Assembly (NCBI GenBank): GCA_025934775.1
Contig: JAICWO010000005.1
Location: forward strand, 186,001 to 250,000
Direction of reading: 5' to 3'
Length of the DNA stretch: 64,000 nucleotides
Source: Gemmatimonadaceae bacterium
GTDB taxonomy: Bacteria > Gemmatimonadota > Gemmatimonadetes > Gemmatimonadales > Gemmatimonadaceae
The position numbers were made by a program, and so were the translations under genes. Below the pieces are notes generated by a model, which worked only from the letters and a program-made list of their open reading frames with translations, had not been told where the DNA came from and ran no database searches. Numbering within the stretch: the first letter of the stretch is position 1; each line of letters opens with the position of its first letter. This document shows positions 6,163 through 9,104 of the stretch, one piece after another.

Positions 6163-6270
6163 CCCCCAAAATAGGGCGGGGTGGCGCGCCAGACCGGCGA
6201 CCGACTGCCCGCAGGCGACCCGCACGAAATGCATAAAATATAAGATCAAGCAGCCGAATCAGACTTCAGT

Positions 6271-6297
6271 CAGCGGCCGGCGTTGGGTCAATTTGAA
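6271..6297. repeat. Left target duplication (8 bp) plus left terminal inverted repeat (19 bp)
   Basis: cagcggcc (6271-6278) is followed by ggcgttgggtcaatttgaa (6279-6297). The 19-bp part is the exact reverse complement of 8952-8970. Beyond it the two ends diverge. Confidence 0.88.
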
Positions 6298-6334
6298 ATT
6301 GGAGAACTGCGACTCCGCTCGTTAGCTTGCGGTT

Positions 6335-6562
6335 ATGGCGAAGCTTCCGAAACGTCCGCGCGACACCGCGCAGCTCGCGAAGTTCATGGTCGAGATGGCG
6401 ACGGGCGAGCGCCCGAAAGACAGGCCGCAGCCGAGCGACGACGCTGCGGTGAGACGTGGGTTGGCACGCAAGGAAGCCCTGCCTCCTAAGCGACGAAAGG
6501 CGATTGCCAAAAAGGCCGCCTCTGCCCGCTGGAAGGGAAAGAAAGGCAAGGAAAGGGACTGA
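6335..6562 (+). CDS. Small basic protein with C-terminal Ala/Lys/Arg motif (passenger gene)
   Basis: 75 residues, strongly basic. The first half (MAKLPKRPRDTAQLAKFMVEMATGE) resembles short proteins found on many bacterial chromosomes and plasmids. The second half ends in a RRKAIAKKAASARW motif, which recurs at the C-terminus of small histone-like or KGG-like proteins. Function is unknown; nucleic-acid binding is plausible from charge alone. It begins 37 bp inside the left end of the element, reads towards the DUF3800 gene (convergent), and is therefore cargo. A start at ATG 6335 is the only good option. Confidence 0.7.
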   Translation: MAKLPKRPRDTAQLAKFMVEMATGERPKDRPQPSDDAAVRRGLARKEALPPKRRKAIAKKAASARWKGKKGKERD

Positions 6563-6644
6563 TCGGCCTTGCTACAGGCCTTCAAAGTCCGTATTCTTCA
6601 ACAAGAAAGACATACGGTGCTTGTTCGGGTTGCGGCTGACGACA

Positions 6645-6660
6645 AGAGCCCCTGGGCTCT
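6645..6660. terminator. Weak candidate terminator between convergent passenger genes
   Basis: agagcc (6645-6650), loop cctg, ggctct (6655-6660) form a 6-bp hairpin in the 139-bp gap between the small basic gene and the end of the DUF3800 gene. No long T-run follows on either strand, so this is weak. Confidence 0.3.
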
Positions 6661-6701
6661 GCTGGGTTTACCCCTGGCTAGTCAGCCGCTCCCCTTTTTA
6701 G

Positions 6702-7358
6702 CTAGTAGTAATGCGTCGTCCCGAACCGAAACGCATCAAATTCGGTGAAGACAGATTGCTGAATGTGGGCATATGAGCGGGTATCCCCGCGCTCCCACTT
6801 CCGCTGAATTGCCCAGCTGCAATAATCCGCGACCTGGAGACACGGCTCGGACGCAGCGCTCCAAAAGGCAACACGATGATTGACGTTGGTGGTCACCTGC
6901 CACATGACGTCTTGCACTGCGGCATGAAATACCTGCTGCTTCTTCTTCGTGCCGAGCGACGCACCAACCACCAAGAGATCATCATTCGCCTGCACAATCC
7001 TGGGCGTGACGAACTTCATGTGAAGAAACCAGGCCATCTGGTAGAAGCGGGCGTCGGACGGTCGGATGGACGGCTGGGCTTTCGACTTCTCTAAAATCGT
7101 CGTATCCACGCGAAACCCGCCCTGGGCAAGAATTGCGAACACATCGTCGCGAACGTCCTGGCGGTCGGTCGTCGCGTGAAACTCAGAGTCCAGGCCGCGA
7201 TTCTTCCAAGCCAATTCGCGCCGGAGATCGAGGACGGCCGCTCCCACGCGGCAGTCGGGCGGCGCGACGGTCGTCAAGATGAAATACTTCGAAGCGCTCT
7301 GGCCGCGCGAGAAGTCAAAATTCCCGCTCTCATCGGCGAAGACATACTTGCGCGCCAT
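6702..7358 (-). CDS. DUF3800 domain protein (passenger gene)
   Basis: 218 residues, the usual size for DUF3800. The N-terminal acidic motif FADESGNFDF, the internal LDSEFHATTDRQ, and the C-terminal VADYCSWAIQRKW match the conserved positions of the family, which is predicted to be an RNase H-like phosphohydrolase or nuclease. No member of this exact type is known to me by experiment. It starts 3 bp after the stop of the winged-helix-like gene, so the two are almost certainly one transcript. DUF3800 genes often occur on mobile elements and in accessory islands; here it is cargo of an IS1-family element. The acidic residues needed for metal binding appear intact. Confidence 0.82.
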   Translation of the reverse strand: MARKYVFADESGNFDFSRGQSASKYFILTTVAPPDCRVGAAVLDLRRELAWKNRGLDSEFHATTDRQDVRDDVFAILAQGGFRVDTTILEKSKAQPSIRPSDARFYQMAWFLHMKFVTPRIVQANDDLLVVGASLGTKKKQQVFHAAVQDVMWQVTTNVNHRVAFWSAASEPCLQVADYCSWAIQRKWERGDTRSYAHIQQSVFTEFDAFRFGTTHYY

Positions 7359-7361
7359 CGG

Positions 7362-7832
7362 CTACTCAGCGTCGCCCTTGGGCTTACCGCCGTACCAGTC
7401 GGCGAGGCCCCACTCCTTCGTCCTCGTCTTCACAAAATCCTTATTGCGCGTCAGTGCGGAGTAGACGTTGCCGTATGCGATCTTGGGATCTGCCGAATTG
7501 ATTTGGCCGCCAGTGTTCAAAGCGTCAGCAATCGCCGTCACTGGCTGCGGGCGCTTCATCATCCCCAAGTACTTCCGAATCGCGTCGGCCGTGTTCAACC
7601 CGAAGAACGTGTCGCTTTCAATCGTCGTCGCCTGACGCGCGGCTGCGGGCTTCGCGGCAGGCGCGGCGAGCGGTGCGACGGCTGGGGTTGATTCGCCAAT
7701 CGTACCGTCACCGTTGATCGCCACAACGTCCGCGCCGACCATAGCGCGAATGACCTCAATTGCGGCATCAATCTGCCCGCGCTTTGCTATGAGATCGGCA
7801 AGTACGGCATTGTAGTCGATGGGAGCGGTCAC
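7362..7832 (-). CDS. Small protein with N-terminal coiled helix and C-terminal winged-helix-like region (passenger gene)
   Basis: 156 residues starting at GTG 7832, with a strong GGAGG ribosome site at 7838-7842 (complement). Residues 5-32 form a likely amphipathic helix (VLADLIAKRGQIDAAIEVIRAM). An Ala/Pro-rich linker follows (about 45-70), then a region from FFGLNTADAIRKYLGMMKRP through VYSALTRNKDF that looks like a winged helix of the HARE-HTH type. DNA binding and control of its own operon are inferred, not shown. It is the first gene of the leftward passenger unit with DUF3800 and is transcribed away from the candidate RNA and the transposase. Confidence 0.68.
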   Translation of the reverse strand: MTAPIDYNAVLADLIAKRGQIDAAIEVIRAMVGADVVAINGDGTIGESTPAVAPLAAPAAKPAAARQATTIESDTFFGLNTADAIRKYLGMMKRPQPVTAIADALNTGGQINSADPKIAYGNVYSALTRNKDFVKTRTKEWGLADWYGGKPKGDAE

Positions 7833-7870
7833 GGTTGCCTCCAGCGTGCGTCGTGCGTTATATATTCGAC

Positions 7871-7936
7871 AGGTGGACAGCCGAAAGGCCCCACCGAGAG
7901 GTGGCTGGGCCGGGGATTAGCCGGCCGTCGTTTTTT
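7871..7936 (+). ncRNA. Candidate structured RNA with tetraloop hairpins and intrinsic terminator
   Basis: The top strand shows, in order, gcc-gaaa-ggc (a GNRA tetraloop hairpin, about 7880-7889), ccacc-gaga-ggtgg (7891-7904, another GNRA loop), then a GC stem ggccgg (7908-7913) / ccggcc (7921-7926) followed four bases later by TTTTTT (7931-7936). A TATATT box lies at 7861-7866, suitably placed upstream. No reading frame fits. It could be a small RNA of the element, or only a terminator that shields the transposase. The two tetraloops and T-run are seen directly; its expression is inferred. Confidence 0.4.
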
Positions 7937-8036
7937 GTGGTCATCTCTTTCTCCATGTCGGTCGTCGCTGCCCTGCCAAGAGAGGACGACCTTCGGAAGG
8001 TGTACGCGAACGCTACCACTGCTTGTTAGGCGGTGT

Positions 8037-8073
8037 CAAGAGGGGCGTAGAGAAATTCTCTACGCCCCTCTTG
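8037..8073. promoter_or_regulatory. Perfect 17-bp hairpin upstream of the transposase
   Basis: caagaggggcgtagaga (8037-8053), loop aat, tctctacgcccctcttg (8057-8073). In addition ggcggtgtcaag (8029-8040) is complementary to cttgacaccgcc (8116-8127), codons 4-7 of the transposase, so a read-through RNA could fold across the start codon at 8107. Such structures protect several insertion sequences from outside transcription. This role is inferred. Confidence 0.6.
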
Positions 8074-8099
8074 CTTTGCGTAGAGTGGTCAAGCATATT
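8071..8099 (+). promoter_or_regulatory. Possible transposase promoter
   Basis: TTGCTT (8071-8076), a 17-bp spacer, then CATATT (8094-8099). A transcript would start about 8106, right at the ATG of the transposase, giving a leaderless mRNA; no ribosome site is visible before that ATG. Match to the sigma-70 consensus is only moderate. Confidence 0.3.
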
Positions 8100-8106
8100 G
8101 TTCATT

Positions 8107-8961
8107 ATGAATAAGCTTGACACCGCCCGTCGCTCCGCTGTCGTGCGCGCCCTGATCGAAGGCAATTCCATTCGCGCGACCTGCCGCATTACTGGCACGG
8201 CGAAGGGAACTGTCTTGAGACTTCTTGAAGACATCGGCGCCGCGTGTCGTGAGTACCAGGACCGCGCGCTGCGTGAACTACCGTGCAGAGAACTTCAATG
8301 CGACGAGCTGTGGTCGTTTGTTGGTAAGAAGAACAAGCGAGCGACCGAGGCGGATAAGCGCGAAGGGCGTGGCGATGCTTGGATTTGGACGGCGATTGAC
8401 GCACAGTTGAAGATCATTCCTTGCTGGCACGTTGGCAGTCGCGATGCTGACGCGGCCTTCACCTTCATGGAGGATTTGGTATCGCGTCTCGCGAACCGCG
8501 TCCAGCTCACGACCGACGGGCTGAAGGTCTACGCGAAGGCTGTTGAAGACGCCTTCGGGTGGAACGGCGTGGACTACGCGATGCTGGTCAAACTCTATGG
8601 AGAGACGCCAGAAGCGCAGCGCCGCTATAGTCCGGCGCAGGTTATCGGGATTCAGAAGGACTGGGTTATGGGTCGCCCCGATCCCGATAAGGTGTCAACG
8701 TCCTTCGTTGAGTCGCACAATCTCACGATGCGGATGCGCAATCGCCGGCTGACCCGTTTAACGAATGCCTACAGCAAGAAGCTTGAGAATCACATGCACA
8801 GCCTGTCCCTCTACTTCATGGCCTATAATTTCGTCCATGTCCACCATACGCTCACGAAGGAACGTGGCGGCGTTCACACCACTCCAGCGATAGCAGCAGG
8901 TGTTAGCGATCACGTCTGGAAGGTCGACGAGATTGTACGGCTGCTGCCGGATTCAAATTGA
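8107..8961 (+). CDS. IS1-family transposase
   Basis: 284 residues. Start ATG 8107 matches the usual beginning of this single-frame IS1-type group (MNKLDTARRSAVVRALIEG), so the upstream extension through the hairpin is rejected. An N-terminal helix-turn-helix (SIRATCRITGTAKGTVLRLL) is followed by the catalytic acids: Asp in QCDELWSFVGKK, Asp in QLTTDGLKVY and Glu in STSFVESHNLTMRM. The stop codon lies inside the right terminal repeat. The gene is intact, with no frameshift signal, unlike classical IS1 with its InsA/InsB frameshift. It is the only transposition gene in the element. Confidence 0.92.
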   Translation: MNKLDTARRSAVVRALIEGNSIRATCRITGTAKGTVLRLLEDIGAACREYQDRALRELPCRELQCDELWSFVGKKNKRATEADKREGRGDAWIWTAIDAQLKIIPCWHVGSRDADAAFTFMEDLVSRLANRVQLTTDGLKVYAKAVEDAFGWNGVDYAMLVKLYGETPEAQRRYSPAQVIGIQKDWVMGRPDPDKVSTSFVESHNLTMRMRNRRLTRLTNAYSKKLENHMHSLSLYFMAYNFVHVHHTLTKERGGVHTTPAIAAGVSDHVWKVDEIVRLLPDSN

Positions 8962-8978
8962 CCCAACGCCCAGCGGCC
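8952..8978. repeat. Right terminal inverted repeat (19 bp) plus right target duplication (8 bp)
   Basis: ttcaaattgacccaacgcc (8952-8970) is followed by cagcggcc (8971-8978), identical to the 8 bp before the left repeat. The repeat overlaps the last codons and stop of the transposase. Confidence 0.88.
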
Positions 8979-9071
8979 TAACCGCGCACTGCTAAGCAAT
9001 TTGACTGCTCACACCGGTCCCGCCCCTAAATGTGACCACTCGGCGGTGAAAAGTGTTGAGAGGGAGGTATT

Positions 9072-9104
9072 ATGCAACGTTGTTGTAAATCCTCGCGAAC
9101 GTAA
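9072..9104 (+). CDS. Possible 10-codon leader ORF (MQRCCKSSRT) before the SusC gene
   Basis: A very good Shine-Dalgarno (agggagg, 9061-9067) lies 4 bp before ATG 9072, and the frame closes at TAA 9102-9104, 109 bp before the SusC start. It contains two adjacent Cys codons. The ribosome site is better than that of most genes nearby. It could be a leader peptide controlling susC or chance. Confidence 0.25.
   Translation: MQRCCKSSRT

Follow-up and report, generated by a model that had tools for sequence, protein, structure and literature searches.

A small IS1-like transposon in the window (the whole 64,000-nucleotide stretch of DNA analyzed here) carries a gene for a DUF3800 protein and, behind it, a predicted RNA. 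Comparative analysis shows that this RNA is a conserved, strongly covarying three-way junction that follows DUF3800 across phyla. Comparison of loci also shows that DUF3800 and the RNA travel together in two types of transposon, and that the winged-helix and small basic proteins encoded nearby do not travel with DUF3800. The first-pass annotation had joined these three proteins in a possible defense or addiction module. Its genes and coordinates (6335-6562 on the plus strand, 6702-7358 and 7362-7832 on the minus strand) were confirmed, as was carriage on a minimal transposon (19-bp ends, 8-bp duplication, transposase), but it overlooked the conserved partner of DUF3800, the RNA at 6632-6690 on the minus strand, which accompanies 74 of 91 DUF3800 relatives (11 viral plus the best 80 of 148). 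We tentatively favor the view that DUF3800 is a nuclease paired with a cognate RNA, perhaps in a toxin and RNA-antidote arrangement, and that the pair is exchangeable transposon cargo. The relevant features are:

6279-8970: transposon, 2,692 bp, with perfect 19-bp ends and an 8-bp target duplication
6271-6278: left copy of the target-site duplication, CAGCGGCC, an exact match to 8971-8978
8971-8978: right copy of the target-site duplication, CAGCGGCC
6279-6297, plus strand: left terminal inverted repeat, complementary at 19 of 19 positions to 8952-8970, with an end motif shared by sister elements
8952-8970, minus strand: right terminal inverted repeat, the perfect 19-bp partner of 6279-6297
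6335-6562, plus strand: 75-aa small basic protein, detected by HMM at 30 of 31 transposase loci and at none of 91 DUF3800 loci (11 viral plus the best 80 of 148 genomic)
6632-6690, minus strand: predicted three-way-junction RNA, 59 nt, starting 11 nt past the stop codon of DUF3800; 70.1 bits, E = 7.7e-15, with the window one of 21 seeds
6702-7358, minus strand: 218-aa DUF3800 protein, by prediction an RNase HII-like nuclease (PF12686, AlphaFold, fold search)
7362-7832, minus strand: 156-aa protein with a coiled coil and a winged helix (HARE-HTH/RNAP-delta-like), carried by 4 of the 31 transposase loci
8037-8073: inverted repeat of 18 bp, perfect and separated by 1 nt, that lies 33 nt ahead of the transposase ATG
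8107-8961, plus strand: IS1-related DDE transposase of 284 aa, encoded in one frame (PF03400, 31.2 bits; cut-off 24.1)

Elements of the IS1 family have inverted ends and an 8-9 bp target duplication, and the window element shares both traits (19-bp ends, 8-bp duplication). Canonical IS1 has two overlapping frames, InsA and InsB; the window transposase frame at 8107-8961, in contrast, is single and open, without this split, and its product scores 66.3 bits against the NCBIfam IS1 profile, for which the cut-off is 100. The transposon is present as one copy in its 4.9-Mb genome. When four congeners were compared for an empty site, the left flank was present in all four, and the other flank was not collinear. 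No inverted repeat as long as that at 8037-8073 was found in 23 other loci scanned; shorter hairpins occupy the pre-transposase spot in other elements, and the hairpin of L200 repeats the terminal motif.

The DUF3800 protein is matched by PF12686 over residues 5-187 (38 bits; cut-off 21) and by the PADLOC model DUF3800_VII (E = 2.3e-8), with no sequence match to PDB chains. Its AlphaFold model (pLDDT 93.7) aligns over 172 residues with RNase HII (1eke_B; Z = 12.8, rmsd 3.9); rows 1-16 of the structure search are all RNase HII/H2/H3, and Foldseek gave E = 1.7e-6. The RNase H-like assignment of the first-pass annotation is therefore borne out as an RNase HII fold, while its statement that the acidic motifs are intact is only partly so. 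All 40 of the 40 aligned sequences have D9, E10, and D178 (and likewise G12, F16, R70, K91, Y179, W182, A183, R186, K187, and W188), but the alignment lacks a conserved acid where strand 127-133, the fourth strand, ends, a position at which RNase H enzymes carry one; this call comes from alignment and model, without residue-level superposition. Catalytic members of RNase HII have four catalytic carboxylates, whereas the conserved ones seen in DUF3800 are D9, E10, and D178. A structural check of the active site, which had been suggested at the outset, thus gives a modeled RNase HII fold in which one expected catalytic acid seems to be missing, and the model points to a protein with most but not all of the expected acidic residues. 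The absent fourth-strand acid agrees with the "catalytic rearrangement" that part of PMC10910872 reports for a DUF3800 protein. Sections of PMC10910872 and PMC12669027 also describe DUF3800 as an accessory of some Cas12a2 loci, with a reported RNase H fold and links to noncoding RNA.

Folding the 3' stretches of DUF3800 relatives gave one common shape, which opens with stem P1, continues through unpaired letters that include CUA to hairpins P2 and P3 (P3 of the AGAGCCC...GGGCUCU type), and returns to P1 by a UC-containing joint. The window RNA folds at -31.1 kcal/mol (z = -3.5), and the letters CUA and CUU-UC, outside the stems, are near-invariant. Run unguided on 21 sequences, RNAalifold recovered P1 only, with compensatory changes in nine of nine pairs; P2 and P3 were placed by hand from single folds. 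The covariance model, R1, was built from 21 sequences, window included. Among 79 aligned matches, both sides vary in 18 of the 21 pairs; cells with such two-sided changes number 263, compared with 95.1 for shuffles (none of 500 reaching the observed value), and covariation is 0.368 against at most 0.125 for slid versions, in an alignment that was fitted to R1, which favors the covariation score. This covariation rules out chance structure. Since no run of U follows the window RNA, it is not a plain terminator. A known Rfam RNA was also rejected as the identity of 6632-6690: no family matched window positions 6200-9100 at E ≤ 10, and none matched 34 further loci at the gathering score or seven relatives at E ≤ 5. 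A literature search of partial coverage found no paper naming this RNA or this IS1-like cargo group.

We searched with R1 a set of 91 DUF3800 loci (11 viral contigs plus the best 80 of 148 in genome contigs), among which the nearest relatives of the window's protein are from Gemmatimonadota. The 74 matches 3' of the gene (68 at E ≤ 0.01) all lie on its strand, 6-166 nt behind it (median 24); 20 of them are model seeds, and the non-seed loci give 54 of 71. Seventeen loci have no match, four of them with sequence that ends <100 nt past the gene, which leaves 13 misses in 87 loci with enough sequence; one of these, L048, shows the motif by eye. Beyond these, the search returned the window itself, two weak matches on the reverse strand, and a second copy each in L050 and L063. 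The second copies (L050:5911-5988 and L063:5914-5991; 2 of 91 loci) lie in tandem, ~170 nt behind the first. R1 gave no matches in 35 loci without DUF3800 and 11 matches in 14 further DUF3800 loci, two of which (L121, L122) are on the opposite strand.

Across 395 genomes of the phylum, R1 matched in 17, once in each. Twelve of these matches directly adjoin DUF3800 (10 on the same strand; those of G179 and G242 on the opposite one), the match in G016 lies next to a DUF3800 remnant (HMM E = 1.4e-9), and four genomes (G041, G162:C33, G250, G361) have the RNA alone, with no DUF3800. The stand-alone copies are at L221:609-667, L222:2672-2730, L223:544-595, and L224:2729-2784; two are near-identical, come from related genomes, and have a HAD-like gene beside them. 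Between the window element and L205/L206, DNA similarity covers ~6632-7358 (the reading frame plus ~70 nt behind it) and no other significant part; L044 and L078 share DNA from 3 nt before the ATG to 13 nt past the RNA, and in other pairs homology runs far beyond the RNA. The DUF3800-RNA unit is found in Gemmatimonadota, Acidobacteriota, Chloroflexota, Bacillota, Pseudomonadota, and other phyla; isolates with it include Litorimonas cladophorae, Mangrovicella endophytica, and Fertoeibacter niger.

The other type of transposon that carries the unit is IS1595-like. A transposase of this type adjoins 16 of the 91 DUF3800 loci (11 viral plus the best 80 of 148), with L011 and L076 being the same sequence; the other 75 have none in the searched stretch. 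Ends and an exact duplication surround seven of the 16 (L025, L031, L035, L048, L059, L064, L076), and the RNA lies within five of these seven bounded elements; apart from the transposase and a tiny gene, that of L064 holds little but DUF3800 and its RNA. One locus without the transposase, L016, also gave an ends-plus-duplication match, as chance predicts (0-1 per shuffle). In a DUF3800 tree of 82 of the 91 rows plus the window, which includes 12 of the 16 IS1595-linked loci, at least four label changes are forced, with gains of the linkage indistinguishable from losses. The tiny divergent gene (~50 aa) was rejected as a general DUF3800 partner, as it is present at only 9 of the 91 loci (11 viral plus the best 80 of 148); these are L031, L035, L064, L076, and five others, nearly all IS1595-linked. 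Elsewhere, DUF3800 is mostly beside housekeeping-type genes, and around the loci without IS1595, 80 flanking proteins fall into 60 families, none seen more than twice among the 25 families listed. The earlier idea of toxin- or defense-type cargo remains plausible, as sister elements of the window transposon have toxin-type genes, but no DUF3800-linked defense island was seen, nor any defense enrichment among the 80 flanking proteins (families listed).

Of 395 genomes from the same phylum, 39 have relatives of the window transposase, which also occur in 17 plasmid records and in viral contigs. From 32 loci, we kept 31 as the transposase-locus set (L169 has no transposase match). By one search rule, 17 of the 31 have ends (≤4/20 mismatches) and an exact 8-bp duplication, compared with one such match in 620 tries (20 x 31) on shuffled flanks; L163, L164, and L170 have more divergent ends and duplications seen by eye. 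The small basic gene matches in all but one of the 31 loci, of which seven are seeds of its profile and some were picked since the gene was already visible. It is also present in 11 of 12 loci from plasmids and viral contigs that were fetched by the transposase alone (L180-L183, L185-L187, L189, and L200-L204, with L181/L182 counted as one), the sole exception being L189 (30% identity). Because it is so constant in both sets, we regard the gene as part of the transposon; by gene content, it is a core or hallmark gene of this IS1-like group. The protein has no Pfam match and a weak phrog_2384 match (E = 4e-4), and it probably binds DNA as an accessory to transposition. Its distribution, 30 of 31 transposase loci vs 0 of 91 DUF3800 loci (11 viral plus the best 80 of 148), takes it out of the module in which it had been placed with DUF3800. 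The cargo of sister elements, which lies either past the transposase or in the gap separating it from the small gene, includes:

HTH plus IrrE-type peptidase: L168, L177, L179, L180, L185, L186 (peptidase match below the cut-off in L177 and L179)
PIN: L163
Fic: L171
HipA-like kinase (sub-threshold DUF3037 match) plus PemK: L201
GNAT: L162, L200
NYN, a sub-threshold match: L203
Proteases: L170, L187, L200
DUF6471: L183

Toxin-type families, a label given by our own judgment, occur in 12 of the 23 IS1-like elements with cargo read, a count that stands without a background rate; the 23 are the 17 bounded elements plus L163, L164, L170, L168, L179, and L202. Among the IS1-like elements, DUF3800 is in the window's element only. 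This shows a transposon group that swaps toxin-type cargo and has the small basic gene as its hallmark. P63C-domain genes are found in the IS1595-type elements L048 and L059 (beside DUF3800) and in the IS1-like L182, and DUF6471 in both L025 and L183; the sharing of these genes between the two element types is a sign of a common cargo pool. The L183 transposase (L183:4737-5573) reads as a chimera of an IS1595-type zinc-ribbon N-terminal half and an IS1-like C-terminal half, and it sits within perfect IS1-like ends and an exact 8-bp duplication. The IS1-like element of L186 has, at its right end, a pair of genes for 78 and 201 aa (L186:4931-5769), the larger of which looks by eye like an ADP-ribosyltransferase-type toxin and has no Pfam match. 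An IS1-like end motif at L116:3555-3573 lies ~1.4 kb from a transposase-less DUF3800-RNA unit, possibly a decayed element.

The winged-helix gene is on the same strand as DUF3800, and the 3-bp gap given for them by the first-pass annotation is confirmed (7359-7361); from this spacing, the two are likely co-expressed. Among the 31 transposase loci, it is carried by the window, L159, L160, and L162, all from the same phylum. A profile seeded with these four proteins found no match at the 91 DUF3800 loci (11 viral plus the best 80 of 148 genomic), and the protein was not found in plasmids or viral contigs. With four carriers among the transposase loci and none among the DUF3800 loci, it appears to be an optional transposon gene. 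No DUF3800 was seen at the other strong winged-helix loci, L159, L160, L162, and L174, in the last of which the gene adjoins a broken IS1595-type transposase; thus, in the loci searched, co-occurrence of the proposed protein pair was found nowhere else, an outcome that the first-pass annotation had itself named as counting against its module. The winged-helix-like proteins of L164, L167, and L202 were rejected as homologues, being unsupported by hhalign, and L178 is weak. Profile matches weakly suggest the HARE-HTH/RNA-polymerase-delta domain as the best affinity: the domain matches TIGR04567 below the curated cut-off (E = 0.006, 16.7 of 42 bits), the top three PDB sequences are RNA polymerase delta subunits (E = 0.007-0.012), and the homologue in L174 matches HARE-HTH at E = 0.01, also sub-cut-off. 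A single-sequence structure model was unusable (pLDDT 39.9). The protein probably acts in transcriptional regulation and, in this element, happens to be encoded first in the DUF3800 operon.

We propose that the transposon cargo would be a two-part unit, an RNase HII-fold DUF3800 with a structured RNA behind it on the same strand. The RNA would be made from the DUF3800 transcript and bound by the nuclease, and, in what is the least certain step, it would restrain the nuclease as an RNA antidote; the pair could then act as addiction- or defense-type cargo that helps the transposon persist. A toxin with an RNA antidote is favored because the RNA is sometimes kept alone, the protein is seldom without the RNA, and the sister transposons have toxin-type genes. 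The cases of RNA without DUF3800, taken with the RNA at most DUF3800 genes, give the asymmetry expected of an antidote, though the stand-alone RNAs may be mere relics. The single RNA copy behind the gene, the 13 misses in 87 loci, two opposite-strand cases in 12, the one seemingly missing acid, and the mostly housekeeping-type surroundings of DUF3800 elsewhere speak against this reading. The RNA could instead act solely in cis within the DUF3800 messenger, as a signal for processing or decay and perhaps as the enzyme's own autoregulatory cleavage site. Its position on the same strand, a median of 24 nt behind the gene, fits such a role, which we judge to be rather unlikely given the RNA without DUF3800 in four genomes, the opposite-strand copies in two, and the lack of a U run behind the window RNA.

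Another role for the RNA is that of a cofactor, with DUF3800 as a compact ribonucleoprotein nuclease activated or guided by RNA, as in TnpB/IscB. An RNase-H-type nuclease with a conserved structured RNA 3' of its gene, in transposons, resembles such a system, the near-invariant unpaired letters (CUA, CUU-UC) suggest protein contact, and the accessory role at Cas12a2 loci and noncoding RNA links of DUF3800 (in parts of PMC10910872 and PMC12669027) point the same way. However, 218 aa is small for guided recognition of a double strand, a guide-like variable stretch was not identified, and homology stops at or just past the RNA in some pairs and far beyond it in others; overall, a cofactor seems unlikely. 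We are equally doubtful of a minimal RNA-dependent nuclease, an RNase HII-fold enzyme that would work only in complex with its own 3' RNA; IS1-like and IS1595-type transposons would have carried this system as cargo into many phyla, and some genomes would have kept just the RNA. It is very improbable that DUF3800 and the RNA aid transposition itself (for example, by processing intermediates or transcripts) rather than being selfish or defensive cargo: two transposase families whose elements show 8-bp duplications are linked to DUF3800, but other IS1-like elements do without it, and 75 of 91 DUF3800 loci (11 viral plus the best 80 of 148) are without an IS1595-type transposase in the searched stretch. 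There is similarly little to recommend the winged-helix protein and DUF3800 as a dedicated toxin-antitoxin or defense pair, as first proposed. The 3-bp spacing on one strand and another small helical protein directly before DUF3800 in the IS1595-type element L025 would suit such a pair; yet the L025 protein is unsupported as a homologue (hhalign probability 7%), 0 of 91 DUF3800 loci (11 viral plus the best 80 of 148) carry a winged-helix gene, and the homologues in L159, L160, and L162 occur without DUF3800.

DUF3800 is widespread, and earlier work had noted links to RNA but no mechanism for them. With a compact covarying RNA that tracks one DUF3800 lineage, and with mobile carriage, whether the protein binds, cuts, or depends on the RNA becomes testable. 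The motif D-E-x-G is the N-terminal motif of RNase HII, and DUF3800 shares both this motif and the fold of RNase HII/RNase H2 (Z = 12.8, 172 residues); it differs in having no conserved fourth-strand acid and in its additional invariant R70, K91, W182, and RKW 186-188. TnpB/IscB are RNase-H-type nucleases spread by transposons, with an omega RNA encoded on the 3' side. DUF3800 is likewise an RNase-H-type nuclease by prediction, with a 3'-side RNA and transposon spread, but it is far smaller, has no guide architecture shown, and rides DDE elements. In type III toxin-antitoxin systems, the RNA is a tandem repeat that precedes an endoribonuclease gene, whereas the DUF3800 RNA is behind the gene, with a second copy at only 2 of 91 loci (11 viral plus the best 80 of 148). 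Type II systems are defined by a conserved protein pair; here, in contrast, the winged-helix gene is beside none of the same 91 DUF3800 relatives (11 viral plus the best 80 of 148).

The series of DUF3800-associated RNA motifs runs from I to XI, with the original description reportedly by Weinberg in 2017. These motifs are likewise structured RNAs that adjoin a DUF3800 gene; the window RNA differs as a compact ~59-nt three-way junction behind the gene, with no Rfam match at E ≤ 10. Part of PMC11701678 gives the Rfam names DUF3800-I (RF02969) and DUF3800-IX (RF02968). In Tn3-family transposons, toxin-antitoxin systems are passenger genes, and the toxins are mostly of the RNase type (PMC7157771, in part). 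The window group differs from these in being IS1-related and in its small basic gene, and DUF3800 and its RNA are absent from the families listed in the relevant part of PMC7157771; like the Tn3-family passengers described there, however, the window group has exchangeable toxin-type cargo in a transposon backbone.
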